Position numbers and translations under genes: made by a program | Assembly: GCA_014763715.1 (NCBI GenBank) | Contig: JACXUV010000001.1 | Location: 62,001 to 126,000 of the forward strand | Reading direction: 5' to 3' | DNA from: Rhodobacterales bacterium | GTDB taxonomy: Bacteria; Pseudomonadota; Alphaproteobacteria; Caulobacterales; Hyphomonadaceae | DNA length: 64,000 nt | Part shown: one piece after another, positions 3,967-55,199 of the stretch | Layout: every line of letters begins with the position of its first letter | Numbering within the stretch: position 1 is the stretch's first letter | The notes under the pieces: generated by a model | The model's input: the letters and a program-made list of their open reading frames with translations, nothing else | Told to the model about the DNA's origin: nothing | The model's database searches: none

Positions 3967-3969
3967 CGC

Positions 3970-8101: not shown

Positions 8102-8125
8102 CGGAATCTCCTTGTTTTGAAAATC

Positions 8126-11297: not shown

Positions 11298-11305
11298 GGG
11301 GTGTC

Positions 11306-12559: not shown

Positions 12560-12564
12560 GCTGC

Positions 12565-13563: not shown

Positions 13564-14090
13564 GCCTGCTGTCCCCCCTTTGCTTCACTTTTATAAGCGC
13601 GCCTGAGCCGGGCCAGAATCGCGCGGCCTGGCGCCCCCAGAACTCCAGCTGCTTCTTCCGCGATCGACCCTTCAACATCATCGAGTGCATTTCGGAGGCG
13701 CACCACGGCTTCAGTATCGCCGGAGACATCCAGATCGCGCGAGAAGAAAGCGGCGTCACCATCCCGTTCGGAGTCCACCAGTTCCAGCAGCAGCATGAAC
13801 CGGCCCCGGATCCTGGCTTCAGCATGGGGCGCGCGATCACGTGGGACAGCCCGGAATGCGAGGGCTTTTGGATCGGGGCACAAATGAAGTGCGAATGGCA
13901 ACTCAACCGCATCGATCAGGAAGGCACTCTGTTTGTACGACCCGAGCCGCGCGAAGACAGACGGGTGTCTGTCGCCAATCCGCCGGACAACATAAGAAAG
14001 AAGCGGCTGAATAAGCACGCAGGATAAACGCGAACCCGCGCCGCGGACGAACTTCGCCCCCTTCGGATCAAGATTGGCCCTCCAGTGCAT
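13560..14090 (-). CDS. ubiT: SCP2-domain ubiquinone accessory protein UbiT
   Basis: About 176 residues with an SCP2 sterol-carrier-like domain (LPFALHLCPDPKALAFRAV, then AEARIRGRFMLLLELVDSERDGDAAFFSRDLDVSGDTEAVVRLRNALD-type sequence). UbiT binds isoprenoid quinone intermediates and is encoded with ubiUV in anaerobes. The ATG at 14090 has an AAAGAG site seven bases upstream; a GTG 15 bases earlier is possible. It heads the long ubiTUV-moa operon and has an FNR-like box in front. Confidence 0.9.
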   Translation of the reverse strand: MHWRANLDPKGAKFVRGAGSRLSCVLIQPLLSYVVRRIGDRHPSVFARLGSYKQSAFLIDAVELPFALHLCPDPKALAFRAVPRDRAPHAEARIRGRFMLLLELVDSERDGDAAFFSRDLDVSGDTEAVVRLRNALDDVEGSIAEEAAGVLGAPGRAILARLRRAYKSEAKGGQQA

Positions 14091-14166
14091 GGTCGGCTCT
14101 TTCACTCTGTTCGTGCCGGATCTCCACCGGCGGAATAGTGTTTAGAACCCAAGCGCTTTGGAACGC

Positions 14167-18471: not shown

Positions 18472-19878
18472 TCAGACCAGATCGAAGGTTTCACCAGGAT
18501 CGGGTACACAGACACCGGATTCCCATTTCCCCCCAAGGCTGCGCCGCATGGCTTCAGCAGCAGCAGGCTCACCATGGGTTATAAAAGTACGCTTCGGGCA
18601 CTCCCTGAATCCATCGGCCCACCCCAACAAGGCGGTTCTGTCCGCATGAGCCGAAAATCCGCTGATACTCCGGATATCTGCATTCACAGGCACCCTGTCC
18701 CCAAATATGTTCACATTCGAAGCCCCCTCGACCAAACGCCGCCCCAGCGTGCCGCTCGCCTGATACCCGGCAATCAGCACCGTATTTTGTGGTTTTGGTA
18801 ACCCATGCCGCAAATGGTGAAGAATACGGCCTGCAGTACACATACCACTTGCAGAAAGTATGATCGCGCCCGACCTTATCAGATTGAGACTCATCGAGTC
18901 TTCGACTGACTCAGTGAATTTCAGCAGGACCGAAGACTTGCCTGCAGCATGCCAATTGGCAAGCTTTCTCGCCTCGGCATCAAAGAGATCGAGATGGCGC
19001 ATGGTCAGCCGTGTGACAGCCTGGGCCATTGGCGAGTCAAGGAAGATGTTGAGATTCTTCAAGTGCCCCTGACAGGTCAGATGCTGGAAATAGTAGATCA
19101 GCTCCTGCGACCGGCCGAGCGCAAAGGCCGGAATGATCAAATTACCTCTCTTCTCCTCCAGCGTATGCCGTGCAATTTCGAGCAGATCGTACAGAGAAGG
19201 CTCAAGCGCTTTATGGTCCCTGTCTCCATAAGTCGATTCAATTACCAGATAGTCTGCCGTTTCGACTTTCTGAGGATCGCGAATGATTGGGCGGCCAGGT
19301 TGTCCCAGATCCCCGGAGAACACGAGCTTGCGTTCGATGCCTGCCTCTATCACCCAGATTTCGAGTATCGCCGATCCCAGAATATGTCCGGCGTCACGCA
19401 ACCTGATGCGCACGTTTTCAGCCGGAGAAAATGCCTCATCATATTCATGGCCGACAGTTTGACTGATCGCCGTGTCGGCGTCTTCGATTGTATAGAGCGG
19501 CGTCACTTGCCCCCTTTGTTTTCTGCGTACTTTCCCGTTGGAACGGTTGGCACGCTCAGCGTCTCGCTCATGAATATGTGCGCTGTCCTTGAGCATGATT
19601 TCCAGAAGTTCGGTGGTCGCAGTGCTGGTGTGTATCGGGCCGGAAAATCCGTCTCGGCAGAGCTTTGGCAACAGTCCGCTATGGTCGATATGCGCATGGG
19701 TCAGAACAACAAAATCCAGCGACGCCGGATCAAACGGAAACGCTCGGCGGTTCTTCTCGTCAGCCTCCCGCCCTCCCTGAAACATGCCGCAATCAACGAG
19801 AAAACGAACGCCATCAGCTTCAACAAGATAGGCTGAGCCGGTCACTTCACCGGCAGCTCCGTGGAATGTCAGCTTCAC
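18472..19878 (-). CDS. Beta-CASP metallo-beta-lactamase-fold RNase-like protein
   Basis: A 468-residue protein of the metallo-beta-lactamase/beta-CASP (CPSF-like) group, which cut RNA. The metal-binding motif is LTHAHIDHSG; AGHILGSA and FSGDLGQPGRP supply further ligands. The beta-CASP insertion carries DSPMAQAVTRL, SASGMCTAGRILHHL and ISGFSAHADR, with HGEP near the C-terminus. It lies 33 bases after the LOG-family gene, so the two are probably cotranscribed. A second copy of the family occurs at 51.4-52.8 kb, also beside nucleotide enzymes. Confidence 0.92.
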   Translation of the reverse strand: MKLTFHGAAGEVTGSAYLVEADGVRFLVDCGMFQGGREADEKNRRAFPFDPASLDFVVLTHAHIDHSGLLPKLCRDGFSGPIHTSTATTELLEIMLKDSAHIHERDAERANRSNGKVRRKQRGQVTPLYTIEDADTAISQTVGHEYDEAFSPAENVRIRLRDAGHILGSAILEIWVIEAGIERKLVFSGDLGQPGRPIIRDPQKVETADYLVIESTYGDRDHKALEPSLYDLLEIARHTLEEKRGNLIIPAFALGRSQELIYYFQHLTCQGHLKNLNIFLDSPMAQAVTRLTMRHLDLFDAEARKLANWHAAGKSSVLLKFTESVEDSMSLNLIRSGAIILSASGMCTAGRILHHLRHGLPKPQNTVLIAGYQASGTLGRRLVEGASNVNIFGDRVPVNADIRSISGFSAHADRTALLGWADGFRECPKRTFITHGEPAAAEAMRRSLGGKWESGVCVPDPGETFDLV

Positions 19879-38303: not shown

Positions 38304-39086
38304 CTACCGGGCCAGTCGGTCGAGCCTCTGTCCCGGATTATCGATCACGACGGCCGGGTCGACCGCAGCGACTGTCTTGTCCGTCTCCGGACAGTCGATG
38401 GACCGGATAATATGTCCGAGGACGTTCAGCCTTGCTGCACGCTTGTCATCTGTACGGACCACATACCATGGCGCATGCTCGAAATCCGTCTTCAGGAACA
38501 TCTCGTCGCGCGCGTTCGTATATTCATCCCATTTTTGCAGGGCCACCGCGTCGATCGGACTCTTCTTCCATTGTTTGAGCGGGTCCCGGTCGCGGTCTTC
38601 CAGCCGGGTCTCCTGCTCGGTCCGGCTTATGTCGAGATAGTATTTGAGGATTTGCATCCCGTCATGAACGAGCATCTGCTCGAACGCGCCGACCGTCTCC
38701 AGAAACGCAGCCACCTCGGCCTTCCGCGCGAATTTCATCACGCGTTCCACACCCGCTCTGTTGTACCAGGAGCGGTTGAACAAGGCGATCTCTCCATCGG
38801 CCGGCAGATGCGGCACATAGCGTTGGAAATACCAGCTCCTCGTGTCCCGGTCGGAGGGCTTGCCAAGGGCAACAACCCGCGTATCCCGCGGGCTGAGATG
38901 CTCTGAAATCCGCTTGATGACGCCATCCTTGCCGGCTGCATCGCGCCCTTCGAAAAGAATGAGGATACGATGCCCGTGCCGGATCGCCCGCCTCTGGATC
39001 TTGACCAGCTCTACTTGCAACGCCCGGAGATCATGCTTGTAGGCTTTTTTTGACACGCCCCTGGCGTCCTGTTCGTCATCGGACAT
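38304..39086 (-). CDS. ppk2: Polyphosphate kinase 2 family protein
   Basis: A 260-residue PPK2 enzyme, which uses polyphosphate to phosphorylate nucleotides. The Walker A motif is FEGRDAAGKDGVIKRI; the arginine-rich loop is FNRSWYNRAGVERVMKF and the lid region follows. The overall match is to the PPK2 family with a single domain, which phosphorylates NDPs (class I) or NMPs; the class cannot be fixed by eye. The ATG at 39086 lies inside the end of the cfa gene, so the two are coupled. Confidence 0.92.
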   Translation of the reverse strand: MSDDEQDARGVSKKAYKHDLRALQVELVKIQRRAIRHGHRILILFEGRDAAGKDGVIKRISEHLSPRDTRVVALGKPSDRDTRSWYFQRYVPHLPADGEIALFNRSWYNRAGVERVMKFARKAEVAAFLETVGAFEQMLVHDGMQILKYYLDISRTEQETRLEDRDRDPLKQWKKSPIDAVALQKWDEYTNARDEMFLKTDFEHAPWYVVRTDDKRAARLNVLGHIIRSIDCPETDKTVAAVDPAVVIDNPGQRLDRLAR

Positions 39087-40347
39087 TCTGGTGGCGCCTT
39101 TCCTCATTCAGGCAGGATTTCGTTCGCTTTGAAACAGGTATCGGATCTGGCTGATACAGGTAATCCCGCGTCAGCGGAACCGACTCCTGTCGCTTGCCGA
39201 GCTGGAGCTGAAACACATTGTGGACACCGTGCCGGAATGAAAGCTCGCTGCATACCAGGTAGAATTCCCACATCCGTACAAAGCGCGCATCGTGCAAGGC
39301 TTCGGCCTCAGCAGCGCGCGCCAGAAAGCGCGCCCGCCAGGCTTTCAGCGTTTCGGCATAGTGAAGGCGGAGGACTTCGATGTCGAGCACCGTCAGACCC
39401 GCTTGCTCGATTGCCGGCAGGATCTCCGACAGGGCCGGAATGTAACCGCCCGGAAAGATGTGCCTTGCGATCCAGGGATTGGTTGCACCCGGCCTGCCCG
39501 CTCGGCCGATCGTATGGACAAGGGCAACCCCGTCCGGGCTCAGGCGCGCTGCAATCTGTCTGAAATATTCCTGATAGTGGGGCACTCCGACATGCTCGAA
39601 CATTCCCACCGAGACGATCCTGTCATACTCATCCGTAAGAGACCGGTAATCCTCGATCCGGAACGTGGCCTGGTCGCCGAGCCCTTGATCCGCTGCACGC
39701 TTGCGAGCTAACTCGTATTGCTCGCAGGAAAGCGTCACGCCTTCCACGCGAACGTCCTCCGACCGGCAAAGATGCAGGGCCAGGCCGCCCCAGCCGCAAC
39801 CGATGTCCAGCACCCGGTCGCCAGGTCTGAGGCAAAGCTTGCGGGCGATATGTTCTTTCTTGAGTTCCTGGGCCTGCTCCAGCGTGACCTCAGCATCCGG
39901 GAAATAGGCGCAGGAATATTGCATGTCCTCATCCAGGAAGAGGCGATAGAGATCATTCCCGATGTCATAGTGATGAGCTACATTGCGCGCGGATCGCTCT
40001 TGCGGATTGAATTGCGCAATCAATCGGGCGCTCTTCCTGAACAGCGCCGGCAACCGTGCTGCCGGAAGTCCGTCTGCCAGGAAGTTCACCCAGAAGAGAT
40101 CCAGCAGGTCGTAAAGGTCGCCGAATTCAATGGTCAGGCCGCCTGCCATGTAAGCCTCGCCGACCTGCAGTTCCGGATCCAGAAGGATCCGCCGAAGCCA
40201 GGCATTCGAGGCGATAGCGATCCGGACCGGCCGGACGCGATAGGATCCGTATCTCGCTGTTTTTCCATCCGGAAACCTGACCTCGATGCATCCCTTGCGG
40301 ATCGCCCGTTCCAGCCTGTTTCTTGCGATCGCGCCTATGAGTGCCAT
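39076..40347 (-). CDS. cfa: Cyclopropane-fatty-acyl-phospholipid synthase
   Basis: A 423-residue SAM-dependent enzyme that adds a methylene bridge to unsaturated membrane lipids. It has the N-terminal lipid-binding region (QVGEAYMAGGLTIEFGDLYD), ARNVAHHYDIGNDLYRLFLD, the SAM motif VLDIGCGWGGLALH and EHVGVPHYQEYF with the catalytic glutamate region. Cyclopropane lipids resist acid and oxidative stress, which fits the metal-stress setting. It begins a two-gene unit with ppk2, divergent from a sigma-factor gene. Confidence 0.95.
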   Translation of the reverse strand: MALIGAIARNRLERAIRKGCIEVRFPDGKTARYGSYRVRPVRIAIASNAWLRRILLDPELQVGEAYMAGGLTIEFGDLYDLLDLFWVNFLADGLPAARLPALFRKSARLIAQFNPQERSARNVAHHYDIGNDLYRLFLDEDMQYSCAYFPDAEVTLEQAQELKKEHIARKLCLRPGDRVLDIGCGWGGLALHLCRSEDVRVEGVTLSCEQYELARKRAADQGLGDQATFRIEDYRSLTDEYDRIVSVGMFEHVGVPHYQEYFRQIAARLSPDGVALVHTIGRAGRPGATNPWIARHIFPGGYIPALSEILPAIEQAGLTVLDIEVLRLHYAETLKAWRARFLARAAEAEALHDARFVRMWEFYLVCSELSFRHGVHNVFQLQLGKRQESVPLTRDYLYQPDPIPVSKRTKSCLNEERRHQNVR

Positions 40348-40533
40348 GCCAGATCTCCGTTGGAGTCCACCTGCCGGTCGCCAGGCGGAACTTATTGACT
40401 GATACGGAGAAGACGCCCCGCTCCCTCAACCGTTACAGTCGGGCGGGCGCCACGGACGCCCGATAAGGGGCATGCCGGCCGGATGCGTATGAATATGCAG
40501 ACTGCCCGCCGATCCCGCGAAAGGAACCAAGGG

Positions 40534-41118
40534 ATGACATCTGACAAGGCGCCATCAAGGCAGCGCAGGCGGGCCGTTGAAGCCGCTCTGACCGAGTCGC
40601 ACCAGGACCTTTACCGCTTCCTGAAACGGAAGATCGGCAATGACGCGGATGCCAGGGACGTGTTGCAGGACTTCTACGTGAAAGCCCTGACGCGCTTTTC
40701 CGACCTGAAGGATGAAGACCGCTTGCGCGGCTGGCTCTCTCAGGTTCTGCGCTCGACAATCGCGGACCATTTCCGTGACAGGAAACGTACCAGCGATTTG
40801 CTGGCCAGCTATGCTGCCAATGCGGAGCTTCTCTTCGGCGAAGAGGAACTGGACTTCGTGATCTGTGCCTGTCTCTATAAGATGCTTCCGACGCTCAGTC
40901 CCGGCTATGCAGACCTAATCTGGCGGGCAGATCTCATCGGAGAAGAAAGATCCGCCATCGCTGAAGACCTCGGCCTCAGCGAAGCCGCCCTTCGGGTGAA
41001 GCTGCACCGGGCCCGCCGGGCTATGCGCGAACGCCTTGAACAGACCTGCCATACCTGCCTCGAACACGGATACTTCCAGTGCGCCTGTCAGGGATCCGGC
41101 AGCAAGGTGCACAGGTAG
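40534..41118 (+). CDS. ECF-type sigma factor with cysteine-rich C-terminal tail
   Basis: A 194-residue sigma-70-family protein with region 2 (LYRFLKRKIGNDADARDVLQ, LRGWLSQVLRSTIADHFRD) and region 4 (ERSAIAEDLGLSEAALRVKL). After region 4 comes CHTCLEHGYFQCACQG, four cysteines and a histidine, suggestive of a zinc- or copper-binding tail. No anti-sigma gene is adjacent, so the tail may itself sense metal or redox state. AAAGGA precedes the ATG at 40534 by eight bases. It lies between cfa (divergent) and the copper ATPase (downstream, same strand). Confidence 0.87.
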   Translation: MTSDKAPSRQRRRAVEAALTESHQDLYRFLKRKIGNDADARDVLQDFYVKALTRFSDLKDEDRLRGWLSQVLRSTIADHFRDRKRTSDLLASYAANAELLFGEEELDFVICACLYKMLPTLSPGYADLIWRADLIGEERSAIAEDLGLSEAALRVKLHRARRAMRERLEQTCHTCLEHGYFQCACQGSGSKVHR

Positions 41119-41383
41119 GGCCTCGACGCCTGGACCGATCATGCGCCTCCCGGTGCTGGCAACCGCCCACAAGTCCGGGCAATCGGCTTTTGAGGGGTCA
41201 GCATCGCCGACACGTATTTCTGAAAAGCAATCCGGCAACCGCCCTGCACGGGGAAACAAAGCGCATGCAGCGAAGGAAGACCATGATCATTGATCCTGAG
41301 ATGTCCACACGCACCAAGCCAGGATGCAGGATTGCAACCCGCGCCTGCCGACCCTGTCCCATTACGGAAAAATAGTCAGAATC

Positions 41384-43450
41384 ATGGACCACTCGACCCA
41401 CACGCATCAGGCAGCCGCCTCTCCCGAAACGGCTAATCCTCACAGCCATCACGCTCACAATGGCGCAGGGCATGCCCATGAGGGTCACAATCACGAGGGC
41501 ATGATCGCCGATTACCGCCGCAGGTTCTGGATCGTCCTGATCCTGACCGTGCCGATACTGGCTCTGGCTCCGATGATACAGACCTGGCTCGGTCTTCAGG
41601 ACAGTTTACGCTTTTCCGGTGACCGGATCCTTCTCGCCGCGCTCTCAAGCCTTGTCTTCTTCATCGGCGGCTGGCCCTTCCTGAAAGGATTCTGGCAGGA
41701 AATAACCGGGCGCGGGATCGGAATGATGACCCTGATTTCGGTCGCGATCACCACCGCTTATGCCTATTCAGTCGGCATGGTCGCGATCGGCAGCGACGAG
41801 ACCTTTTTCTGGGAACTTGCCACGCTGATCGCTGTCATGCTGCTGGGGCACTGGATCGAAATGAAATCGGTTCTCGGTGCCGGGCGCGCGCTCGAGAAGC
41901 TCGCCAGCCTCATGCCGGATGAAGCCCACCTCCTCGCCGACGACGGCTCTGTCAGGGACGTATCCGTGTCGACACTGCGCGGCGGCGAACAGCTGCTGAT
42001 CAAGCCTGGCGAAAAGGTTCCGGCGGACGGCATCATCGTTCATGGCGACTCTTCGCTGAACGAATCCATGCTGACGGGCGAATCGAAGCCTGTATCCAAG
42101 AGCATTGATGACCGGGTGATTGGCGGGTCCATCAATGGAGAAGGCTCGCTGACCATCCGGGTCGACAAGACCGGAGACGAGACATTCCTGTCGAGCGTGA
42201 TCAAGCTCGTCAAGGAAGCCCAGGCCAGCAAGTCCCGGACACAGGACCTCGCCAACTCGGCAGCGAAATGGCTCACCTTCATCGCACTCGGCGGAGGCCT
42301 GTCGACCTTCCTGTTCTGGACATTTTTTACCGGACAGGGTTTCGGGTTCGCCATGGCCCGCGCTGTCACGGTCATGGTGATTGCCTGTCCGCACGCGCTC
42401 GGCCTTGCTGTGCCGCTGGTCGTTGCGCGCTCGACGGCCATCGCCGCAGGCAATGGGCTGCTCATCCGTGACCGGACGGCGTTCGAGGAGGCCCGCAACA
42501 TAGATGCCATCATATTCGACAAGACAGGCACACTGACCCGGGGCGAGTTCGGAATCACCGATACGCTCGTCTTCGATACCACCCATTCCGAAGAAGAAAT
42601 CGTCGCCTATGCCGCTTCGATCGAGGCGCATTCCGAGCACCCGATCGCCCAGGGGATTGTCCGCGACTCAAAACAGGCCTGGCCGGTCGAAAAATTCCGG
42701 GCGATCCCCGGCAAGGGGGCCTCCGGCGAGGTGAAAGGACACGAGGTAAAAGTCGTCAGTCCCGGCTACCTGCGTGACCAGGGCATCGGCATGGAAGACC
42801 CGCGCTTTGAGGAACTGAGCCGGCAGGGAAAGACCGTCGTCTTTGTCCTGATTGACGACCGGCTCGCCGGGGCCATCGCGCTGGCCGATATCGTTCGCGA
42901 GGAATCCCGCGAGGCCATCCGGCACCTTCGGGACATGGGCATCAGATGTATCATGCTGACAGGGGACAACCGGCAGGTGGCTGAATGGGTTGGCCGCGAG
43001 ATCGGGCTGGACGAAGTCATTGCCGAAGTCCTGCCGGAAGAAAAAGCCGCAAAGGTCCGGGAAGTTCAGTCGCGTGGCCTGATCGTGGCCATGACGGGTG
43101 ATGGGGTCAACGACGCCCCTGCCCTCGCTCAGGCAAATGTCGGCATTGCAATCGGCGCCGGAACAGACGTTGCCATCGAGACGGCAGACATCATTCTCGT
43201 GCGTTCAAGTCCTGCAGACGTCGTCGCCATCATCGAACTTGCACGGGCGACCTACAGGAAAATGATGCAGAACCTCGCCTGGGCAACCGGATACAATACG
43301 TTCGCCATTCCGGCAGCCGCAGGCCTTTTCTTCCCGTGGGGCGTGATCCTGACCCCAGCAATCGGCGCCGTGTTCATGTCCGCCAGCACGGTAATCTGCG
43401 CCGTCAATGCCCAGCTCCTCAAACTGAACCGGCAGCGGGCAGGCACATGA
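41384..43450 (+). CDS. copB: CopB-type (CPH) copper/silver-exporting P-type ATPase
   Basis: A 688-residue P1B-ATPase. Instead of a ferredoxin-like metal domain it has a His-rich N-terminus (residues ~1-40, HSTHTHQ and [15 protein letters not shown]). The membrane metal site is [15 protein letters not shown], the CPH form of CopB-type (P1B-3) pumps, associated with Cu(II)/Cu(I)/Ag(I) export. Catalytic motifs are [28 protein letters not shown] and [16 protein letters not shown]. The start follows a weak ribosome site; an in-frame ATG 60 bases upstream seems unlikely. Confidence 0.95.
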
Positions 43451-43530: not shown

Positions 43531-43809
43531 ATGCAGAAGGATAATAGATCATTTCGGAACCATCACCCCCGGGGCGGACGCCTCTGGTTGCCGATTATCG
43601 CCTTTGGCGGCCTGATCGCCTTCTTCCTGCTCTATGAACACCGGGCGCACATCCCGGCCAACGCGGTCTTCTTTCTGGGGTTCCTGCTCTTCTGCGGCGT
43701 GATGCACATGTTCATGCATGGCGGACACGCCGGGCACGGAGCCGGCCATGGCCGGCATGAAGATCGTTTCCTGCCCCCATCAGACAACCAGGAAGGACCC
43801 GGCCAATGA
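43531..43809 (+). CDS. DUF2933 domain small membrane protein
   Basis: A 92-residue protein with two helices (LPIIAFGGLIAFFLLYEH and NAVFFLGFLLFCGVMHMF) followed by a Met/His/Gly-rich stretch (MHMFMHGGHAGHGAGHG) likely to bind copper. DUF2933 proteins sit in copper clusters. The stop overlaps the next start by four bases. Confidence 0.85.
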   Translation: MQKDNRSFRNHHPRGGRLWLPIIAFGGLIAFFLLYEHRAHIPANAVFFLGFLLFCGVMHMFMHGGHAGHGAGHGRHEDRFLPPSDNQEGPGQ

Positions 43810-44477
43810 ACCCGTCCATGGCACAGTCCGAATACGGGCTCTGGTTTCTCGCCGTCCTGAACTCTTTGGTCTTCATTATCTTCGCTTTCAGTTTCGCCAA
43901 ACCGTCGAGATCCAGGGACTGGACCTCTTTCGGCGCCTTCAGTGCCTTCATCATCGCGCTGTTTACGGAAATGTACGGCTTCCCGCTTTCGATCTACTTT
44001 CTTGCGCCCTGGCTTGAATCGAAATTTCCCGACATCAACTGGTTCGCCCACGAGTCCGGACATTTCTGGGAGATGATATTTGGCTGGAAGAGCAATCCGC
44101 ACTTCGGCCCATTCCACTGGGCGAGCCTCGGTCTCATATTTCTGGGCTTTAGCGTCCTGTCTGCCGCATGGCCTGTCCTGCACGGCGCGCTGCGCTCTGG
44201 CACACTCGCGCAAACAGGTATCTATGCCCGTATGCGGCACCCGCAATATGCAGGCTTCGTGCTGATCATGTTCGGTTTCCTCCTGCAGTGGCCAACCGTC
44301 CTGACCCTGATCATGTTCCCCATTCTCGTATTCATGTATGTCCGCCTGGCACTGAGGGAAGAACGCGATGCCGAAGCGCAATTCGGAGAGATGTACAGCG
44401 CCTATGCGGCTGTTACACCCCGCTTCTGGCCACGCTGGGGACACCTGCAGGACATCGAGCGTGCCCGGCACGAATAA
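43806..44477 (+). CDS. Isoprenylcysteine carboxyl methyltransferase (ICMT/PEMT)-like membrane protein
   Basis: A 223-residue membrane protein with about five helices. The C-terminal half has the ICMT-like SAM/lipid motif (GIYARMRHPQYAGFVLIMFG and ALREERDAEAQFGEMYSAY). Members next to copper ATPases are widespread but uncharacterised; they may methylate lipids or small molecules. It is translationally coupled to the DUF2933 gene. Confidence 0.85.
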   Translation: MNPSMAQSEYGLWFLAVLNSLVFIIFAFSFAKPSRSRDWTSFGAFSAFIIALFTEMYGFPLSIYFLAPWLESKFPDINWFAHESGHFWEMIFGWKSNPHFGPFHWASLGLIFLGFSVLSAAWPVLHGALRSGTLAQTGIYARMRHPQYAGFVLIMFGFLLQWPTVLTLIMFPILVFMYVRLALREERDAEAQFGEMYSAYAAVTPRFWPRWGHLQDIERARHE

Positions 44478-45929: not shown

Positions 45930-46832
45930 ATGACCGGCCCGCACGCGCTTGCCATCCTCGTTATGCTCCTCTGGGCCGGTTGTTATCCGTTTATCGCAAT
46001 GGGCCTGTCTGATGCGCCTCATCTGACGTTCGCCGCCTTGCGCGCCCTTCTTGCAGGAGGCGGCCTTCTTGCCATTGCCGGTGCACGGAAATGCCGCCTT
46101 CCTTCCAGCGCGGCGGAATGGGGGTGGATCTGCCTGACGGGGCTCAGCATGACCAGTCTTGGCTATTTCGGCATGTTCCACGCCTCCGAATTCGTGTCTC
46201 CGGGGCTGGCCACCATGATCGAAAGCCTGCAGCCCATGATGGCGGCTATACTCGCCTTCCTGTTTCTCGGGGAGCGCCCCCGCCTCGTGAACTGGACGGG
46301 CCTTGTTCTGGGGGCTGTCGGTGTTTCCCTGGTCGCTGCCCCGAAAATCCTTGCTGCAGGGGGTGACCAGGCCCTGAACGGCATGGGCTTCGTCATGATT
46401 GCCACAGGCGGTGTGGCGGCAGGCAATATCGCGATCAAGAATGTGTCCGCCAGCGTCGATGCATCCATGGCCATGGGATTGCAGCTCGTGATTGGCGCCG
46501 TGCCTCTGGCCCTGCTTGCAGCATTCGGCCCGGACCCGCTCGCCATCACCTGGTCCGCACGCTTTGCGCTCTCCCTGACAGTCCTGGCACTTCCCGGTAC
46601 CGCACTGGCCTACTGGCTCTGGCACAAGGTCCTGCAATCGCTGGACGTCTCAGAAGCGGCCAGTTTCAGCTTCCTGGTACCGCTGATCGGCGTCAGCGCC
46701 GGCGCAGCCTTCTTCGGGGAAACCATCGGAGGAAATGTCGCGCTTGGTGCGATGCTGGCCGCGCTTGGACTATATCTCGCGTCCAGCCGGAACCCACGGA
46801 CGTCACCGTTACCTGGGCGGCGCGATCACTGA
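45930..46832 (+). CDS. EamA/DMT family transporter
   Basis: A 300-residue membrane protein with ten predicted helices in two EamA repeats (ALAILVMLLWAGCYPFIAMG; ASFSFLVPLIGVSAGAAFFG with the GE motif). Members usually export amino acids or metabolites. The start at 45930 is chosen for AAGGGG just upstream. The 3' end overlaps the end of the convergent sigma-factor gene by seven bases. Confidence 0.9.
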   Translation: MTGPHALAILVMLLWAGCYPFIAMGLSDAPHLTFAALRALLAGGGLLAIAGARKCRLPSSAAEWGWICLTGLSMTSLGYFGMFHASEFVSPGLATMIESLQPMMAAILAFLFLGERPRLVNWTGLVLGAVGVSLVAAPKILAAGGDQALNGMGFVMIATGGVAAGNIAIKNVSASVDASMAMGLQLVIGAVPLALLAAFGPDPLAITWSARFALSLTVLALPGTALAYWLWHKVLQSLDVSEAASFSFLVPLIGVSAGAAFFGETIGGNVALGAMLAALGLYLASSRNPRTSPLPGRRDH

Positions 46833-47398
46833 TCGGCGGACTCGACCTGCGCCTGGAGGATTTTTCTTGCCCGGTAGACGCGCGTCTCGACGGTTTTGAC
46901 CGATACGCCGAGAATATCTGCGACCTCGATCTGCGGCAGGTCCTGCAGGACCTGCAGCGTGAACGCCACCCTCAGCTTCTCCGGCAATTCGTCGATCATG
47001 GCGGACACGCGTCTCAGCTCATCGTGAATTTCAAAACCGCCCGGGATGTCCGCCCCGTGGTCCGCGATATCCGGACGGTCCGGAACGTCGAGCGGCGCGG
47101 CCTGGAAGAAGAAACTCCTTACCGCACGTTTCCTTCCGTGATCGCGCACCTTGTTGAGGGCGATATGATAGATCCATGTCGAAAACTTGCGTGACGGATC
47201 ATAGCGGTCGATTGACCGCCAGGCGGCCGTGAATGCGTCCTGGAGCACGTCATACGCGTCCTCATCCCCACGCATGGACCGGTGAATATAGCGATAGAGC
47301 GGCTCCTTGTAGCGGCGCATAAGCTCGGTGAAGGCGCGCTCCTCGCCTCCCGCCGCCGCAACGGCAAGTTCCGCGTCTGTTCGCTCATTATGGGCCAC
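46826..47398 (-). CDS. ECF sigma factor, CnrH-like
   Basis: A 190-residue sigma factor with region 2 (EPLYRYIHRSMRGDEDAYDV, FSTWIYHIALNKVRDHGRKR) and region 4 (LPQIEVADILGVSVKTVETR). It begins at a GTG (47398). It follows a CnrX-like sensor and CnrY-like anti-sigma in the order Y-X-H, the arrangement of the cobalt/nickel-responsive cnrYXH system of Cupriavidus. Its target promoters probably include its own operon. Confidence 0.9.
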   Translation of the reverse strand: MAHNERTDAELAVAAAGGEERAFTELMRRYKEPLYRYIHRSMRGDEDAYDVLQDAFTAAWRSIDRYDPSRKFSTWIYHIALNKVRDHGRKRAVRSFFFQAAPLDVPDRPDIADHGADIPGGFEIHDELRRVSAMIDELPEKLRVAFTLQVLQDLPQIEVADILGVSVKTVETRVYRARKILQAQVESADQ

Positions 47399-47408
47399 GC
47401 GACTATGT

Positions 47409-47843
47409 CTATTGCTCCTTCAGTGCCCGAACGATTTCCTTGTCGAACGCCTTAGCCTGCTCCTCATCCAGTATCTCGCGCATCTCGAACACATGCTCGA
47501 TGGTGAGCTTCTGCAGCTCCCCCATGGCCTCGTGAAAATCATCAATCGCCGCCTGGACAGCGGGGGAATTCGCCTTGTCGGTCTCGATCGCGTCGGCGAG
47601 CGCGAGATTGGCCGCTCGCAACCTTGCTTCAAGCTCCTTCTTGCGCGCCGCGAACTTGCGTTCAACGACTTCAAGGCGCTGCTCCTGTGCGTCGGAGAGC
47701 TCGAGGTCCTTGTGGATCAGATCATGTAGACCTGAAGCCCGCTGGACCTCCGGCGCCGGGGACCAGTTTCCGGCAAGAAAAACGCCGGTCATGCCTGCAC
47801 ACAGCGCAACAAAGGCAACGATGATCCAGTGTTCAAGCCGCAT
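47409..47843 (-). CDS. CnrX/ZraP-like periplasmic heavy-metal sensor
   Basis: A 144-residue protein with one N-terminal membrane anchor (HWIIVAFVALCAGMTGVFLA) and a helical periplasmic domain with HDLIHKDLELSDAQEQRLEV and the CnrX/RsxA-type LTIEHVFEMREIL. The histidines and the methionine match positions used by CnrX to bind Ni/Co. It sits between the CnrY-like anti-sigma and the CnrH-like sigma gene. The actual metal here is unknown. Confidence 0.85.
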   Translation of the reverse strand: MRLEHWIIVAFVALCAGMTGVFLAGNWSPAPEVQRASGLHDLIHKDLELSDAQEQRLEVVERKFAARKKELEARLRAANLALADAIETDKANSPAVQAAIDDFHEAMGELQKLTIEHVFEMREILDEEQAKAFDKEIVRALKEQ

Positions 47844-49019: not shown

Positions 49020-51407
49020 ATGACAGCACATTGGCAGGACGGATATGGCCTGATCGTCCACACGGACGAAACCCGTCAGCGCCTTGCAGACATTCTGCAT
49101 TCGGCCCGGCGCGGCGAGCTGGCCCTGACCGAGCCGCAGGCAGAAAGCGTGCTGGCAGCAACTGACCGCCTGGCAAATGCGGCGATGTGGCTCGTCGCGC
49201 ACATGACTTACGCCTGCCGGGTCGATCTGTCCGGAACCCCTCTTTCTGCCGAGGACTTCAAGCCGTCTCCCGAAGGCCACACCGGCGGCTCCCTGAACAT
49301 GGCGATCGCCTTTGCGGGCTACCTTGCAGCCAACGCCCTGAGCGGACACACACGTGCCTGGACACTTGGCCAGGGCCATTGCGTGGCCGCGATCGAAGCG
49401 GTCAACACACTCACGGGCAATGTATCCGCTTCGCAGCGCGGCCGGTATGACCGCAGCGAAGCCGGACTGACCCGGCTCGTCCGCGATTTTTACAGCTATG
49501 CCATGACGTCCGATGGAAAGCCGGCCGTTCCCCTTGGAAGCCACGTTAATCCAAATACGGCCGGCGGCCTCTCGGAAGGCGGGTACCTCGGCTTTGCAAG
49601 CCTGCAATATATCCATATGCCGTTGCCTGGGGAACGCCTGGTGGCCTTTCTGAGCGATGGCGCGTTCGAGGAGCAGCGCGGATCCGACTGGGCACCGAGA
49701 TGGTGGCGCGCCTCCGACAGCGGCTTTGCCATTCCGGCGATGGTCCTCAATGGGAGGCGGATCGAACAACGAACGGAAATCTCCCAGGAAGGCGGTCTCG
49801 ACTGGCTGGTTCGCCACCTTGAACTGGGCGGGTTTGACCCGATCATCCTGGATGGTCACGATCCCCTGTCCTATGCCTGGGGCATCCTTGAAGCCGAAAA
49901 GCGGCTGGTCGGACTCTCAGAGGCTGACGGCCCCTATCCGGCAAGGCTCCCCTATCTCATTGCGCCGTGCGTAAAGGGCTACGGTTTCCCGGGCGCTGGG
50001 ACCAACCGGGCCCATAACCTCCCTCTCGCCGGCAACCCCCATACCGACCCCGCAGCGCGAGCGGCCTTCAATGAAGGGGCAAGGGCACTCTTCACACCAC
50101 ATGACGTTCTGGATAACGCAATCCGTTCACTGAGCACCCACAAGGCGCAAGGGCGAGTGCTGGAAAGCCGGAACGCCTGCGCCGTTCGGAATGTACCGGG
50201 CCCGCACCTTCCTCCACACGCGGCGGCAGGGTCTGGAAGCGAGCCCCCGGCCTGCGCCATGGACGGCATCGACCGGTGTTTCGCCGGCATTGCGCGCGCC
50301 AATCCGCACCTGCGCATCCGGGTTGCGAACCCCGACGAGCTTCGCTCGAATCACATGCCGCTCACGCTGGAACTGCTGAAACACCGGGTCAACGTCCCCG
50401 AACCCGGCACGCCGGAAGACATCAATGGCTCGATCATTACCGCGTTGAACGAAGAAGCCGTCATCTCGGCTGTGCTCGGCAACAAGGCCGGACTGAACCT
50501 GGCGGTCAGTTATGAAGCCTTCGCCATGAAAATGCTTGGCGCCCTGCGGCAGGAAATCATCTTTGCGCGCCGCCAGAAGGAACTCGGCCAGCCCCCCGGC
50601 TGGATCAGTGTCCCCCTGATCGCGACATCCCACACCTGGGAGAACGCCAAGAACGAGCAATCTCATCAGGATCCGACCCTGCCCGAAGCCCTGCTCGGCG
50701 AGATGTCCGATACGGCGCGCGTCATCTTTCCGGTCGACGCAAACAGCGCCGCGGAAGCCCTCCACAGTGTCTATCGCGGACGTGGCGAAATCGCCTGTCT
50801 TGTCATTCCCAAACGACAGGTCGGCGAGCTCCTAACCCAGGAAGAGGCCGCCGATGCTCTCAGGATCGGCGCCATCCGGATTGCCGGAGACCTCGAATCC
50901 GCACGCGTCCAGTTCGTCGCCATCGGCGCCTACCAGGCGGTCGAGGCGCTTGCGGCCCATGACCGGCTGGCCGGGCGCGGCGTGGCCTCCTGCGTCACCC
51001 TGGTGCTTGAACCCGGTCGGTTCCGTTCCGGCCGGGACCCGATCGAAACGGCCAGCACCGCACCGGATCATATTGTCCGCGCCCTGTTCCCGGCCGGCCT
51101 GCCCCGCATACTCCTGACCCATACCCGGCCGGAACCCATGACCGGCCTGCTCAGACGTATCGACGAAGGCCCCGGCCGGCTGCGGGCGCTCGGATATATC
51201 TCACGAGGCGGTACACTGGATGTACCAGGAATGCTGTTTGCCAATCGCTGTACCTGGGCCCACGCGGTCGACGCGGCCATGACGATCGCCGGTCTCCGGC
51301 AGACCGGCCTGCTCACGGAAGATGAGCGCCGCGCCATTGAAGGTAACGGCGACCCGTCCGTGCTGAAACAGGTTTTACCCATCCACCGAACGGAGACCGT
51401 GCAATGA
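49020..51407 (+). CDS. Divergent phosphoketolase-family (XFP-like) TPP enzyme
   Basis: A 795-residue protein with the length and order of xylulose-5-phosphate/fructose-6-phosphate phosphoketolases. EGHTGGSLNMAIAFAG replaces the usual GHWGTxPG block. GQGHCVAAIEA, LSEGGYLGFASLQY, LSDGAFEEQRG and MVLNGRRIEQ correspond to the XFP E-G-G-x-L-G-Y, G-D-G and N-G-x-K-I sites, so TPP binding looks kept. VIFPVDANSAAEAL is a C-terminal XFP block. Sequences of this sort are often labelled xylulose 5-phosphate 3-epimerase. Classical members yield acetyl phosphate plus glyceraldehyde 3-phosphate. It is first in a four-gene overlapped operon. Confidence 0.8.
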   Translation: MTAHWQDGYGLIVHTDETRQRLADILHSARRGELALTEPQAESVLAATDRLANAAMWLVAHMTYACRVDLSGTPLSAEDFKPSPEGHTGGSLNMAIAFAGYLAANALSGHTRAWTLGQGHCVAAIEAVNTLTGNVSASQRGRYDRSEAGLTRLVRDFYSYAMTSDGKPAVPLGSHVNPNTAGGLSEGGYLGFASLQYIHMPLPGERLVAFLSDGAFEEQRGSDWAPRWWRASDSGFAIPAMVLNGRRIEQRTEISQEGGLDWLVRHLELGGFDPIILDGHDPLSYAWGILEAEKRLVGLSEADGPYPARLPYLIAPCVKGYGFPGAGTNRAHNLPLAGNPHTDPAARAAFNEGARALFTPHDVLDNAIRSLSTHKAQGRVLESRNACAVRNVPGPHLPPHAAAGSGSEPPACAMDGIDRCFAGIARANPHLRIRVANPDELRSNHMPLTLELLKHRVNVPEPGTPEDINGSIITALNEEAVISAVLGNKAGLNLAVSYEAFAMKMLGALRQEIIFARRQKELGQPPGWISVPLIATSHTWENAKNEQSHQDPTLPEALLGEMSDTARVIFPVDANSAAEALHSVYRGRGEIACLVIPKRQVGELLTQEEAADALRIGAIRIAGDLESARVQFVAIGAYQAVEALAAHDRLAGRGVASCVTLVLEPGRFRSGRDPIETASTAPDHIVRALFPAGLPRILLTHTRPEPMTGLLRRIDEGPGRLRALGYISRGGTLDVPGMLFANRCTWAHAVDAAMTIAGLRQTGLLTEDERRAIEGNGDPSVLKQVLPIHRTETVQ

Positions 51408-52777
51408 CTCTGACCCTGACGAGCCTTGGGGGAGCGGGAACCGTTACAGGTTCGCGCCACCTTCTCGAACATGACGGACAGCGCCTGCTGATCGATTGCG
51501 GCCTGTTCCAGGGATTCAAGGGCTTGCGGGAGCGCAACTGGGCGCCCTTCCCCGTCGACCCGTCCTCGATCGACGCCATTGTCCTGACGCACGCCCATAT
51601 CGACCATAGCGGCTATCTGCCAAAACTGGTCAGGGAAGGCTATCGTGGCCCGATCTACTGTTCCGGGGCGACGAAGGACCTTTGCGAAATTCTTCTGCGC
51701 GACAGCGCATATATATCCGAGCGGGACGCCGAACGCGCAAACCGCTATCGCTACACAAAGCATGAGCCGGCAAAGCCGCTTTACACGGTGGCGGATGCCG
51801 AAGCTGCAATCGCGCAATTGGTGCCGGTTGCGTTCCATACAGATATCGCGCTCGACATCGGAGCCCGCGTCTACATGCGGCGCGCAGGCCATATTCTCGG
51901 CGCCTCCACGCTGGAAGTGAAATGGGGCGGGAAGACGATTGTCTTTTCCGGGGACCTCGGACGATATGATGACCCGTTCATGTTCGATCCCGAACCCGTC
52001 CGCAAGGCCGACTATGTCGTTATCGAGTCCACCTATGGGGACCGGACCCACCCGAAGACCGACCCCATGGAGCAGCTTGGCGAGGTCATCGGCCGTACCG
52101 TCAGCCGCGGCGGGACGGTCGTCATTCCGGCTTTTGCCGTCGGACGCGCCCAGCTGCTTCTCTATCATATCTGGATGCTGAAGAAGGCCGGACGCTTTGC
52201 AAACGTCGCGATCTATCTCGACAGCCCCATGGCCATCAACGCGACCGAGCTTCTTTGCGCCCACCTCGATGATCACAGATTTACACCCGATGTGTGCATG
52301 GAGACCTGCAACATTGCCAGTTATGCGCGTGACGTCGAAGCCTCCAAGGCGATCACAAGCGACCGCATGCCAAAGGTGGTGATCGCAGCGAGCGGCATGA
52401 TGACCGGCGGCCGGGTCCTGCATCATGTCGAAGCCTTTGGCGGGGACCGGAAGAACACGATCCTGTTCGCGGGCTACCAGGCGGCCGGGACGCGCGGCGC
52501 AAAGATCCTCGAAGGTGCCAGGTCAGTTCGCATGTTCGGCAAGGAAGTTGAGATCAGAGCGGAAATCGCCAGCCTCCCCGCCTTGTCAGCCCATGCCGAT
52601 GCCGATGAACTGATGAAATGGCTGGATGGCTTTGCGGCCCCGCCAGCCAGGACATTTATCGTTCACGGGGAACCGGAAGCCTCCAGCCATTTCCATGACA
52701 GGATACAGGAGGACCTGGGCTGGCCCAGCGATGTTGTCCGCATAGATCATACCTACGATCTCGCAGGAGGCGCTTGA
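51404..52777 (+). CDS. Beta-CASP metallo-beta-lactamase-fold RNase-like protein
   Basis: A 457-residue beta-CASP protein similar to the one at 18.5-19.9 kb. Motifs are LTHAHIDHSGYLPKL, RRAGHILGAST, FSGDLGRYDDP, ESTYGDRTH, DSPMAINATELL, AASGMMTGGRVLHHV and ALSAHADADEL, with HGEPEAS near the end. It probably cleaves RNA in the cytoplasm. The start overlaps the phosphoketolase stop and the stop overlaps the next gene's ribosome-site region, so it is made together with nucleotide enzymes. Confidence 0.92.
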   Translation: MTLTLTSLGGAGTVTGSRHLLEHDGQRLLIDCGLFQGFKGLRERNWAPFPVDPSSIDAIVLTHAHIDHSGYLPKLVREGYRGPIYCSGATKDLCEILLRDSAYISERDAERANRYRYTKHEPAKPLYTVADAEAAIAQLVPVAFHTDIALDIGARVYMRRAGHILGASTLEVKWGGKTIVFSGDLGRYDDPFMFDPEPVRKADYVVIESTYGDRTHPKTDPMEQLGEVIGRTVSRGGTVVIPAFAVGRAQLLLYHIWMLKKAGRFANVAIYLDSPMAINATELLCAHLDDHRFTPDVCMETCNIASYARDVEASKAITSDRMPKVVIAASGMMTGGRVLHHVEAFGGDRKNTILFAGYQAAGTRGAKILEGARSVRMFGKEVEIRAEIASLPALSAHADADELMKWLDGFAAPPARTFIVHGEPEASSHFHDRIQEDLGWPSDVVRIDHTYDLAGGA

Positions 52778-52779
52778 TC

Positions 52780-54306
52780 GTGCCCGGCGATCATGTTCCC
52801 GGCGGCCAGCCCCTGAAGGCCCGGCGCCTGAAATGGCACACCCAGGACGATGCCATCATCCTCATGCGCACCGACTGTCCGGTCTGCCGCGCCGAGGGCC
52901 TGACATCACGTTCCAGAATCCTTGTCACCTGTGGCACAAGATCGGTGATCGCCACGCTGCACCAGATCGAGGACGACTGGCTACCTATTTCTGAGGCGGG
53001 GCTTTCGGAAGCCGCCTGGAAGCGGCTCGGCGCTGTCCCGGGTGCAGACCTCAGCATTGCCCACGCACCGACGCTCCCATCCCTGTCCGATGTCCGCCAG
53101 CGGATGACCGGAAGACGGCTTGGCGCGGACGCTTTCGACAGGATCATCTCGGATATCGCATCGGGGAAATATTCCGATGTGCACCTAGCCGCTTTCATAT
53201 CCGCCTGCTCCACCCTGAAGCTCGATCTCGGGGAAATGAAAGCCCTGACACATGCCATGGTCGGGGCGGGCGAACGGCTGAGCTGGGATGCGGACCTGGT
53301 AATCGACAAGCATTGCATCGGAGGCCTGCCCGGCAATCGGACAACGCCGATCGTTGTGGCGATCCTTGCCAGTCAGGGCCTGACAATACCGAAGACCTCG
53401 TCGAGAGCCATCACGTCTCCAGCCGGAACCGCCGACACAATGGAAACTCTCACTCGCGTCGATCTGTCGATGTCCGAGATCCGCCGGGTTGTCGAAGCAG
53501 AGGGTGGATGCCTTGCCTGGGGCGGCGCCGTCCAGCTGAGCCCCGCCGACGACGTGCTTATCCGGATCGAGAGAGCTCTCGATATCGATGCCGAAGGCCA
53601 GCTGATCGCGTCCGTCCTGTCGAAGAAGATCGCTGCGGGCGCAACCCATGTCGTACTCGACCTGCCGGTTGGGCCGACCGCCAAATTGAGAAGCCGGCCG
53701 GATGCTGAAGCATTGATCGAACACATGACGGCGGTCGCCGGGGGGTTCGGCCTGCAGACCCGGTTTGTATTGAGCGACGGCAACCAGCCCGTCGGCCGCG
53801 GGATCGGTCCGGCCTTGGAAGCATGGGATGTCCTGCACGTCCTCCAGCGGCAACCGGCCGCGCCTCTCGACCTGCGGGCGCGCGCGATTACCCTTGCCGG
53901 GGCAGCGCTTGAACTTGCAGGCCGCGTGGCGGAAGGCCAGGGCGGAGACGTAGCCCGCGAGGCGCTTGATGACGGATCGGCCTGGTCGAAATTCCAGGCC
54001 ATATGCGAAGCGCAGGGCGGGCTTCGGGTCCCCCCTGTCGCGGACCACTCAGCCCCTCTCCTCCCCCGCCTTGCTGGCAGGCTGACGCGCATCGACAACC
54101 GCAAGCTTGCAAGACTCGCAAAACTTGCCGGCGCGCCGGAACGTCCTGCCGCCGGCGTTACCCTTCACAAGCGCCTTGGAGACTGGCTGAACCGGGACGA
54201 ACCCATTGCCACCATCCATGCCGAGGCGCCGGGCGAACTTGCCTATGCCAGGGATTATGCCCGCAGCCACACCGACATGTTCACCATTGAAAGCTCTCCA
54301 GAATGA
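52780..54306 (+). CDS. AMP phosphorylase-like enzyme (thymidine phosphorylase family)
   Basis: A 508-residue protein with an ~85-residue N-terminal extension followed by the nucleoside-phosphorylase core. DKHCIGGLPGNRTTPIVV and IPKTSSRAITSPAGTADTME are the signatures of archaeal AMP phosphorylases rather than DeoA (KHSTGGVGD type). Those enzymes turn NMP plus phosphate into ribose 1,5-bisphosphate and free base. CPVCRAEGL near the N-terminus is a possible metal-binding CxxC. GTG at 52780 is favoured by AGGAGG nine bases upstream; a TTG at 52774 is too close. No R15P isomerase or RuBisCO gene is present. Confidence 0.85.
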   Translation: MPGDHVPGGQPLKARRLKWHTQDDAIILMRTDCPVCRAEGLTSRSRILVTCGTRSVIATLHQIEDDWLPISEAGLSEAAWKRLGAVPGADLSIAHAPTLPSLSDVRQRMTGRRLGADAFDRIISDIASGKYSDVHLAAFISACSTLKLDLGEMKALTHAMVGAGERLSWDADLVIDKHCIGGLPGNRTTPIVVAILASQGLTIPKTSSRAITSPAGTADTMETLTRVDLSMSEIRRVVEAEGGCLAWGGAVQLSPADDVLIRIERALDIDAEGQLIASVLSKKIAAGATHVVLDLPVGPTAKLRSRPDAEALIEHMTAVAGGFGLQTRFVLSDGNQPVGRGIGPALEAWDVLHVLQRQPAAPLDLRARAITLAGAALELAGRVAEGQGGDVAREALDDGSAWSKFQAICEAQGGLRVPPVADHSAPLLPRLAGRLTRIDNRKLARLAKLAGAPERPAAGVTLHKRLGDWLNRDEPIATIHAEAPGELAYARDYARSHTDMFTIESSPE

Positions 54307-55199
54307 CGCTCTATATTCCCCTTCCAGGCAACACCGCCATGGCCAGCGAGCTCGCCCGGCTGACGGGGGGTGAACTGGGCACTCTTGCGGTCCGCCGGTT
54401 TCCCGATGAAGAAACCTATGTCCGCATTGAAACCGATGTCAGAGGAAAGCATGTCGATCTGGTCTGCACGCTTGCGCGCCCCGACCCTCAGTTGACCGGG
54501 CTCCTCTTTGCCGCCGCGACGGCCCGCGAGCTCGGCGCAGAATCCGTCGGACTGATTGCCCCCTATCTCGCTTACATGCGCCAGGACCGGCGATTTTCCG
54601 AAGGAGAGTCCGTGTCAGCACGGCATTTTGCCCGGATGCTGTCGAGCGTTTTCGACCGGCTGGTCACCGTGGATCCGCATTTGCACCGGATACATGATCT
54701 GGGAGAAATCTTCCCGATCGCCACACGGGTTGTCCATGCAGCACCTGCCCTTGCCGACTGGATCTGGCAGAATGTTGAACCCCCCCTCGTGATCGGACCC
54801 GATTCCGAAAGCGAGCAATGGGTATCCGATGTGGCCTCCCGGGCGGGCGCGCCTTACCTGGTCCTTTCCAAGACACGCCACGGCGACCGTGATGTCGAAA
54901 TCGCGGCGCCTGGCCTCGCCGATTGGGCCGGACGGCAACCAGTCCTGATCGATGACATCGTCTCTTCCGGACGGACGATGATCGAGGCTGCCCGGCATTT
55001 CCAGTCAGCTGGCTTCCCGAAGCCCGTCTGCGTCGTGGTACATGCAATCTTCGCCGATCAATCCTATGCGAGCCTTCAAACCGTCGCCTCCCGGATCGTC
55101 TCCACCAACAGCGTCCGTCATCCGTCTGCTGAAATATCCATCGCGCCCCTCCTGGTTGAGACTGGCAAGGCAAACACAGGCGCCTTCGGGTCGCACTGA
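54303..55199 (+). CDS. prs: Ribose-phosphate diphosphokinase (PRPP synthetase) family
   Basis: A 298-residue protein, slightly shorter than housekeeping Prs (~310). RRFPDEETYVRIETDVRG, LIAPYLAYMRQDRRFSEGES and VTVDPHLHRIHD are the ATP-binding and flexible-loop blocks; VLIDDIVSSGRTMIEAA is the PRPP loop. It would make PRPP and AMP from ribose 5-phosphate and ATP. It is the last gene of the operon, overlapping the phosphorylase stop by four bases, and is followed by a terminator-like hairpin. Confidence 0.92.
   Translation: MTLYIPLPGNTAMASELARLTGGELGTLAVRRFPDEETYVRIETDVRGKHVDLVCTLARPDPQLTGLLFAAATARELGAESVGLIAPYLAYMRQDRRFSEGESVSARHFARMLSSVFDRLVTVDPHLHRIHDLGEIFPIATRVVHAAPALADWIWQNVEPPLVIGPDSESEQWVSDVASRAGAPYLVLSKTRHGDRDVEIAAPGLADWAGRQPVLIDDIVSSGRTMIEAARHFQSAGFPKPVCVVVHAIFADQSYASLQTVASRIVSTNSVRHPSAEISIAPLLVETGKANTGAFGSH

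Follow-up and report, generated by a model that had tools for sequence, protein, structure and literature searches.

A conserved phosphorylase and PRPP-synthetase-like gene pair in Pseudomonadota, and a four-gene operon that may route nucleotides to acetyl phosphate without RuBisCO

Introduction

Catabolism of nucleoside monophosphates (NMPs) through ribose 1,5-bisphosphate (R15P) is known from the archaeal NMP shunt, or pentose bisphosphate pathway, in which an NMP phosphorylase is followed by R15P isomerase and RuBisCO III. Here we describe an operon at positions 49020-55199 of a 64,000-nucleotide window, the whole stretch of DNA that was analysed (contig C37, 62001-126000), from the draft genome (3.55 Mb in 128 contigs) of a Rhodobacterales bacterium, hereafter the host; positions given without a locus or contig refer to this window. 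The list of open reading frames (ORFs) and profile searches place four co-directional plus-strand genes in it: XFP, a divergent phosphoketolase of 795 aa (49020..51407); beta-CASP, a metallo-RNase of the CPSF/TTHA0252 type of 457 aa (51404..52777); TP, an AMP/NMP-phosphorylase-like protein of 510 aa counted from a TTG start (52774..54306); and PRS, a PRK07199-type protein of 298 aa (54303..55199) resembling synthetases of 5-phosphoribosyl 1-diphosphate (PRPP). The operon shares the phosphorylase family with the archaeal shunt and R15P is its probable node, but the host has no match to RuBisCO or to the R15P-isomerase model, TP has a PRPP-synthetase-like partner, and TP scores below the cut-off of the archaeal equivalog.

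Other described systems resemble single parts of the operon. Papers are cited here by PubMed Central number, and what is said of them refers to the portions of each text that were available. Halophilic archaea have a non-carboxylating pentose bisphosphate pathway, which likewise breaks down nucleosides by way of R15P without RuBisCO but uses R15P isomerase and ends in dihydroxyacetone phosphate and ethylene glycol (PMC9700705), where the window operon has a PRS-like enzyme and a phosphoketolase. PhnN, the ribose 1,5-bisphosphokinase of E. coli, makes PRPP by phosphorylating R15P, and the title of a work cited in the same source links it to NAD synthesis (PMC9700705); PhnN is guanylate-kinase-like by sequence and no relative of the PRPP synthetases. 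The phosphoketolase-acetate kinase pathway is known from bifidobacteria, and Methylococcus has a cluster of the two genes (PMC8527097). XFP is homologous to the phosphoketolase of that pathway, with matching active-site residues and relatives that are coupled to acetate kinase, but it is very divergent and sits inside a putative nucleotide-salvage operon. A physiological precedent is Burkholderia cenocepacia H111, for which nucleoside ribose was proposed earlier as a low-oxygen energy source released by induced nucleoside phosphorylases (PMC3759415); there the product is ribose 1-phosphate, and the words phosphoketolase and pyrophosphokinase were not found in the available text. The low-oxygen-activated (lxa) locus of the same species carries six universal stress proteins (PMC6127331, PMC9104464), and phosphoketolase, phosphorylase and pyrophosphokinase were not found as words in the available text of PMC6127331.

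We propose, with a probability of about one in two, that the operon is a RuBisCO-free bacterial module of nucleotide catabolism, leading from NMPs through pentose phosphate to acetyl phosphate and used under respiratory stress. Our search of the open-access literature, mostly of titles and abstracts, found no description of a proteobacterial TP-PRS module or of a PhnN-TP fusion. As far as that search reaches, the partnership of TP with PRS, the exchange of PRS for PhnN and the loop signature of PRS are new.

Results

TP and PRS occur together beyond what chance would give. When 120 Pseudomonadota genomes were drawn evenly, with the host among them, TP (E<=1e-40) and PRS (E<=1e-30) matched the identical 18 genomes and neither matched any of the other 102; these 18 are not independent, as eight come from one family (f19). 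A canonical, housekeeping-type PRS is encoded elsewhere in the host genome (contig C100) and was not retrieved at E<=1e-30, so the PRS search isolates a subfamily. In a larger draw of 398 genomes, 45 had TP or a PhnN-TP fusion, with 49 loci between them, and the neighbourhoods of all 49 were examined. In 40 of them no more than 500 bases separate PRS from TP, and in L095 and L097 it is in the same cluster beyond XFP, which makes 42 of 49 clustered. Among the seven TP loci without PRS, L102 is an additional copy in a genome where TP also occurs together with PRS, in L114 TP is cut at a contig end, L118 is a partial match, and the remaining four (L119-L122) are the fusions described below. A nucleotide search of E. 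coli genomes with TP gave no match.

The conserved unit is thus TP-PRS, with beta-CASP and XFP as accessories. Of the 49 TP loci, 22 have a beta-CASP gene, belonging to either of two types, no further than 4.5 kb from TP, against none of 20 control regions (p=0.0001), the controls being taken from 20 TP-bearing genomes with long contigs. XFP lies within 10 kb of TP in five of 49 loci against none of 20 controls, which is not significant alone (p=0.31). Full four-gene clusters, in varying gene order, occur in Hyphomonas/Henriciella, in a Stagnimonas metagenome-assembled genome, on Agrobacterium and Novosphingobium plasmids, on Paracoccus and Sulfitobacter plasmids, and at L095, L097 and L098; on an Acidovorax plasmid XFP is about 8 kb away from the other three genes. 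Recurrence of the set in several orders shows that the grouping is under selection. An earlier reading made from the window's letters alone, hereafter the sequence-only reading, had regarded the four genes as one coherent set. The TP-PRS core and the recurrence of the four bear that out in part, but beta-CASP in 22 and XFP in five of 49 loci mean that all four are rarely together, the outcome which that reading had itself named as counting against it.

The strongest pointer to function comes from the four loci in which TP lacks PRS and instead has a PhnN domain fused ahead of it (L119:9059-11377(-), L120:8531-10633(+), L121:9119-11275(-) and L122:8549-10480(+)). In all four the PhnN part exceeds the TIGR02322 cut-off, at 164-186 bits against 156. 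A fifth such frame, on a Paraburkholderia plasmid (L143:4251-6246), was identified only through a P-loop motif and a match to TP. Fusion of TP to an R15P kinase implies that TP makes, or uses, R15P, and R15P is the likely product of TP as far as sequence can tell. As the PhnN fusion is found where PRS is missing, PRS would take the place of PhnN at the R15P node in the other loci, and the economical view is that PRS is dedicated to that node. PhnN over the cut-off is found in just two of the 18 TP-PRS genomes (G035, G111) and is missing from the host draft genome. RuBisCO and R15P isomerase were considered as outlets for R15P and rejected, as neither RuBisCO nor the R15P-isomerase model has a match in the draft genome, in line with the sequence-only reading.

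The direction of flow through this node can be argued either way. PRS might form R15P (e.g., R5P + ADP -> R15P + AMP, where R5P is ribose 5-phosphate) and TP, working in reverse, might join bases to it to give NMPs, providing a cheaper, PRPP-independent salvage under energy limitation. The same TP-PRS partnership and a dedicated PRS besides the canonical one would suit such a scheme, and nucleoside phosphorylase equilibria favour synthesis. However, at L120, the one fusion locus with a scanned neighbour, nadC lies directly upstream of the fusion; an ORF in the same position at L122 looks similar by eye. NadC consumes PRPP, so its position at L120 fits a flow from NMP through R15P to PRPP. The RNase, XFP and acetate kinase neighbours also point toward catabolism, and we consider the anabolic direction unlikely.

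PRS itself combines kept and altered features. The catalytic residues of PRPP synthetases (FPDxE, RQD, H126, D167, K190/R192 and D217-D218) are retained in at least 90% of 46 aligned rows, including the Lys/Arg pair K190/R192, to which we assign a presumed role in catalysis. For most of these residues adenine-, R5P- and metal-binding roles are known in the E. coli PRPP synthetase (PMC9232217, PMC6332680). Variation is seen at the position that we equate with Arg99 of the E. coli enzyme, a residue in contact with the beta-phosphate of the nucleotide (PMC9232217). The loop past the catalytic Asp is GPDSES in the window and departs from the PD-x-G-[GA] of PRPP synthetases; it takes the form PD-x-E-[SA] in all 75 evaluable TP-partnered PRS (72 ES, 3 EA), from a set of 76 sequences, 72 of them distinct and one truncated. 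PD-x-G-[GA], presumably the binder of the transferred diphosphate, is kept in the canonical PRS of the host (PDVGG) and in two archaeal sequences aligned.

Two further explanations turn on these observations. PRS could be a normal, class III-like PRPP synthetase, with TP recycling the AMP by-product and with XFP and the RNase just co-regulated stress genes. The retained adenine-, ribose- and metal-binding residues would agree with this, as would the 27 of 49 TP loci with no beta-CASP nearby and the 44 with no XFP. Such a supply role is made doubtful by the canonical PRS that the host already has, by replacement of Gly-Gly/Ala with Glu-Ser/Ala in every evaluable partner, and by the exchange of PRS for the R15P enzyme PhnN in some loci. 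In the sequence-only reading PRS connected R5P and PRPP as a PRPP synthetase; the family assignment stands, but this is not the housekeeping enzyme. Conversely, the PD-x-E-[SA] form could be a new enzyme which moves a single phosphoryl group (R15P + AMP -> R5P + ADP) by the chemistry of PRPP synthetases, its distal phosphate site being blocked. TP and PRS would then give ADP from two AMP and Pi without ATP, XFP and acetate kinase would add ATP, and the whole would be a plasmid-spread kit for respiratory failure, running substrate-level phosphorylation on RNA of the cell itself. We hold this only tentatively and on balance would not expect it to prove correct. A recent preprint defines several new classes of bacterial PRPP synthetase; among all the classes covered there, II and IV were assayed and both were active (PMC13252144).

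XFP is the rarest of the four. On plasmids it is tied to TP: among the 15 records that carry this XFP, at least 14 contain TP as well, a count that includes near-clonal Rhizobiaceae plasmids; the remaining record, from Alteromonas, has no TP within 9 kb of XFP and was not checked further out. Three of the five XFP-bearing TP loci, two of them from one genome, have acetate kinase within 10 kb, against one of the 44 TP loci that lack XFP (p=0.002). In Alteromonas the acetate kinase gene overlaps XFP by one base, and in Phenylobacterium gnd is 28 bases downstream of XFP with fixJ about 3 kb away; the acetate kinase gene of the host is on another contig (C45). Four TP loci (L023, L025, L094, L145) carry a type II glyceraldehyde 3-phosphate dehydrogenase gene, which offers a possible outlet for the glyceraldehyde 3-phosphate from XFP. 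Aligned to the solved phosphoketolases 8io6 and 3ai7, XFP has His87, His120, His332, His549, Glu499, Lys598 and the SDG and NG motifs, which we take to be the phosphoketolase catalytic residues and thiamine-diphosphate motifs. They are kept in 16 of 18 XFP rows, the window included. Plasmid annotation calls this clade 'xylulose 5-phosphate 3-epimerase' in 14 of 15 records (e.g., NZ_CP009293.1, 165607-167994), a name for which the sequence gives no support; by title or abstract we found no literature under it dealing with this protein.

Profile and structure matches place each protein in its family. XFP passes the Pfam cut-offs for XFP (3.7e-38; 131.5 against 22 bits) and XFP_N (5.4e-12; 45.6 against 23.7) and is distant from 8io6/3ai7 (E 1e-20). 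Its best score against the NCBIfam phosphoketolase subfamilies is 118.5 bits, below the cut-off of 962, marking a very divergent clade. Beta-CASP has the Lactamase_B (metallo-beta-lactamase, MBL), Beta-Casp and RMMBL domains and the metal ligands of a CPSF-type RNase; H63, H65, D67, H68, H163, D184, E208, H341 and H397 are kept in at least 90% of 34 aligned rows, and the best solved relative by sequence is the ribonuclease TTHA0252 (1.4e-80), followed by Cas14 and archaeal CPSF. TP exceeds the thymidine-phosphorylase-family cut-offs of NF003338 (645.7 against 434 bits) and TIGR02645 (557.5 against 434.6) and fits the archaeal full-length models, with 5.8e-90 against the solved archaeal phosphorylase 4ga5. 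Its counterparts in Hyphomonas jannaschiana VP2 and a Hyphomonas metagenome-assembled genome show 100% identity to it along the part that was matched, which makes the host a Hyphomonas near that species. PRS scores 416.7 bits against a cut-off of 322 for NF005537, has the PRPP-synthetase Pfam domains, and has 1u9y as its best solved relative by sequence (1.8e-38).

Layout and families agree with the sequence-only reading, which had described four overlapped, co-directional genes. The junctions read ATGA, TTGA and ATGA, that is, 4-nt overlaps, with one ambiguity. Position 52780 has an in-frame GTG whose spacing from AGGAGG is better than that of the TTG start of TP, and if TP begins at this GTG the beta-CASP/TP junction may be a 2-nt gap rather than an overlap. 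Promoter and terminator scans gave counts at chance level. A second beta-CASP-TP-PRS copy is present in the host genome (contig C74, L055, 10511-14252); its surroundings include a ribonucleotide-reductase-like gene as well as one for a universal stress protein. The window also holds a second beta-CASP RNase (18472-19878, minus strand), of the type found beside TP-PRS in loci such as L071, L087 and L112.

Evidence on the conditions of use comes from Bradyrhizobium diazoefficiens, where at 0.5% O2 bll3115 (MBL hydrolase), bll3116 (ribose-phosphate pyrophosphokinase) and bll3117 (thymidine phosphorylase family) are raised, with protein log2 changes of 2.9, 4.4 and 2.1 and transcript changes of 15.4-, 7.7- and 5.1-fold (PMC6515984). 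In the same data the phosphoketolase bll2518, which may or may not belong to the XFP clade of the window, rises by log2 4.3 in protein and 8.2-fold in transcript (PMC6515984). On a related Bradyrhizobium plasmid the order is universal stress protein, TP, PRS, MBL, and a universal stress protein is near six of the 49 TP loci. The universal stress protein, nitric oxide- and metal-defence genes near several loci would also be expected of a general low-oxygen or metal-stress island with no single pathway, in which the RNase would serve mRNA turnover, phosphoketolase carbon overflow and TP-PRS nucleotide balance. A Burkholderia MBL protein and phosphate acetyl/butyryl transferase, which rise together (PMC6127331), fit the same picture. 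Overlap of the genes in the window, tight spacing across several gene orders and the XFP-TP linkage on plasmids make so loose an island very unlikely. The gene numbers of that Burkholderia pair, we assume, fall within the lxa locus.

The surroundings of the operon are rich in copper genes, as the sequence-only reading had said of the window: profile matches give a multicopper oxidase and CopB at 27.6-30.4 kb, a heavy-metal P-type ATPase at 41324..43450 (+), and TolC and CusB/CusF-like genes at 57.7-60.5 kb. Some TP-PRS clusters elsewhere likewise have such an ATPase nearby, or an ICMT/PEMT-like methyltransferase like that at 43806..44477 (+). Of 13 annotated bacterial plasmid TP loci, which were hand-picked and not random, nine show a gene for a heavy-metal P-type ATPase, DUF2933 or ICMT, and four show none. 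A copper ATPase is near TP in nine of 49 loci against one of 20 control regions (p=0.26), counted in slices of about 9 kb per side, several of them cut by contig ends; the ATPase of the window, 9.3 kb from TP, falls outside its slice and is not among the nine. At this p value we rejected copper as the defining context of TP-PRS, and the link of the module to copper is suggestive only. That copper poisons iron-sulphur respiration, and so calls for an ATP route without iron-sulphur enzymes, is our conjecture. Two ECF-type sigma factors (40483-41118 and 46826-47843), one beside a Metal_resist protein, make metal-responsive control of the island possible. The PPK2 polyphosphate kinase (38304..39107, minus strand; Pfam PPK2 6.4e-94), which had been thought to fit the pathway, is only loosely associated: it is about 10 kb away, outside the operon, and was matched in just four of 100 sequences scanned, the window included, so we rejected it as a member. 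Elsewhere, positions 2000-14100 hold an anaerobic-looking set comprising NnrS, a ribonucleotide reductase (Ribonuc_red_lgC with TSCPD), MoeA and a U32 peptidase, with FNR-like sites (one mismatch) at 2107, 4139 and 7699.

Discussion

We infer the reactions of the proposed catabolic module, and the direction of flux, as follows. The beta-CASP RNase, with other RNases, would supply NMPs from RNA. TP would convert NMP and Pi to free base and R15P, as suggested by its family, the PhnN fusions and the absence of other outlets. PRS, the partner of TP, would act at the node of R15P, PRPP and R5P and return the pentose to the pentose-phosphate pool, probably keeping the C1 phosphoryl group on a nucleotide. 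Housekeeping isomerase and epimerase are assumed to yield xylulose 5-phosphate, which XFP, given its conserved active site, would split with Pi into acetyl phosphate and glyceraldehyde 3-phosphate, and acetate kinase would turn the acetyl phosphate into ATP. The module would be deployed on impaired respiration, under low oxygen, to which its Bradyrhizobium counterparts have been shown to respond, and perhaps under copper. An emergency-energy or salvage role was the suggestion of the sequence-only reading. It is partly supported and is still the best reading, backed by the PhnN-TP fusions, by XFP genes next to acetate kinase or gnd and by the microoxic induction in Bradyrhizobium, with the reservation that the conserved unit is just TP-PRS.

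Several observations weigh against this proposal. TP falls below the cut-off of the AMP-phosphorylase equivalog TIGR03327 AMP_phos (451.5 against 535); three unfused bacterial relatives do so too (484-504), whereas two haloarchaeal ones pass (610-616). The four PhnN-TP fusions score 354-404 on this model. XFP is near so few TP loci, and of the five sampled genomes that encode this XFP clade three have no TP; in those three (L077, L078, L079) XFP and a beta-CASP gene are arranged head to head, with about 200 bases between them. Two gammaproteobacterial XFPs (L048:6398-8752 and L052:7632-9986) lack the catalytic histidines, the SDG motif and the lysine, yet still sit ahead of TP-PRS, and judged by these losses they are likely pseudoenzymes retained in the operon. 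Phosphoryl transfer from R15P to AMP or ADP may moreover be thermodynamically uphill.

The regulatory evidence also has points on the opposing side. The four Bradyrhizobium genes fall in a wider group of 71 (log2 fold change of at least 1 at both levels) but outside the core of 62 genes defined by p<=0.2, and their rows show no FixK2-target mark and no change in bacteroids (PMC6515984). No FNR-type box is found in the 350 bases upstream of the window operon, where the best fit to TTGAT-N4-ATCAA is 6/10, and nothing near the operon matches it with one mismatch or fewer; FNR/FixK control of the window operon was rejected on this ground. Among its relatives a box scoring at least 9/10 is present in eight of 50 upstream stretches, the window being one of the 50 (L031, L032, L033, L043, L046, L051, L053 and L071), against 289 of 9800 random stretches of those loci. 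Four of the eight are Henriciella with one identical site, and the enrichment is a trend at best.

If the proposal is right, archaea, phosphonate users and a number of uncultivated bacteria are not alone in metabolising R15P, which would also be the business of a module widespread in proteobacteria; its phosphorylase, alone or fused to PhnN, is encoded in 45 of the 398 genomes sampled. On plasmids its genes are annotated under the names 'thymidine phosphorylase family', 'ribose-phosphate pyrophosphokinase' and 'xylulose 5-phosphate 3-epimerase'. The PRS with a PD-x-E-[SA] loop constitutes an uncharacterised subfamily of the PRPP synthetases. The module would also offer a testable explanation of energy gain from RNA in respiring bacteria when oxygen fails.

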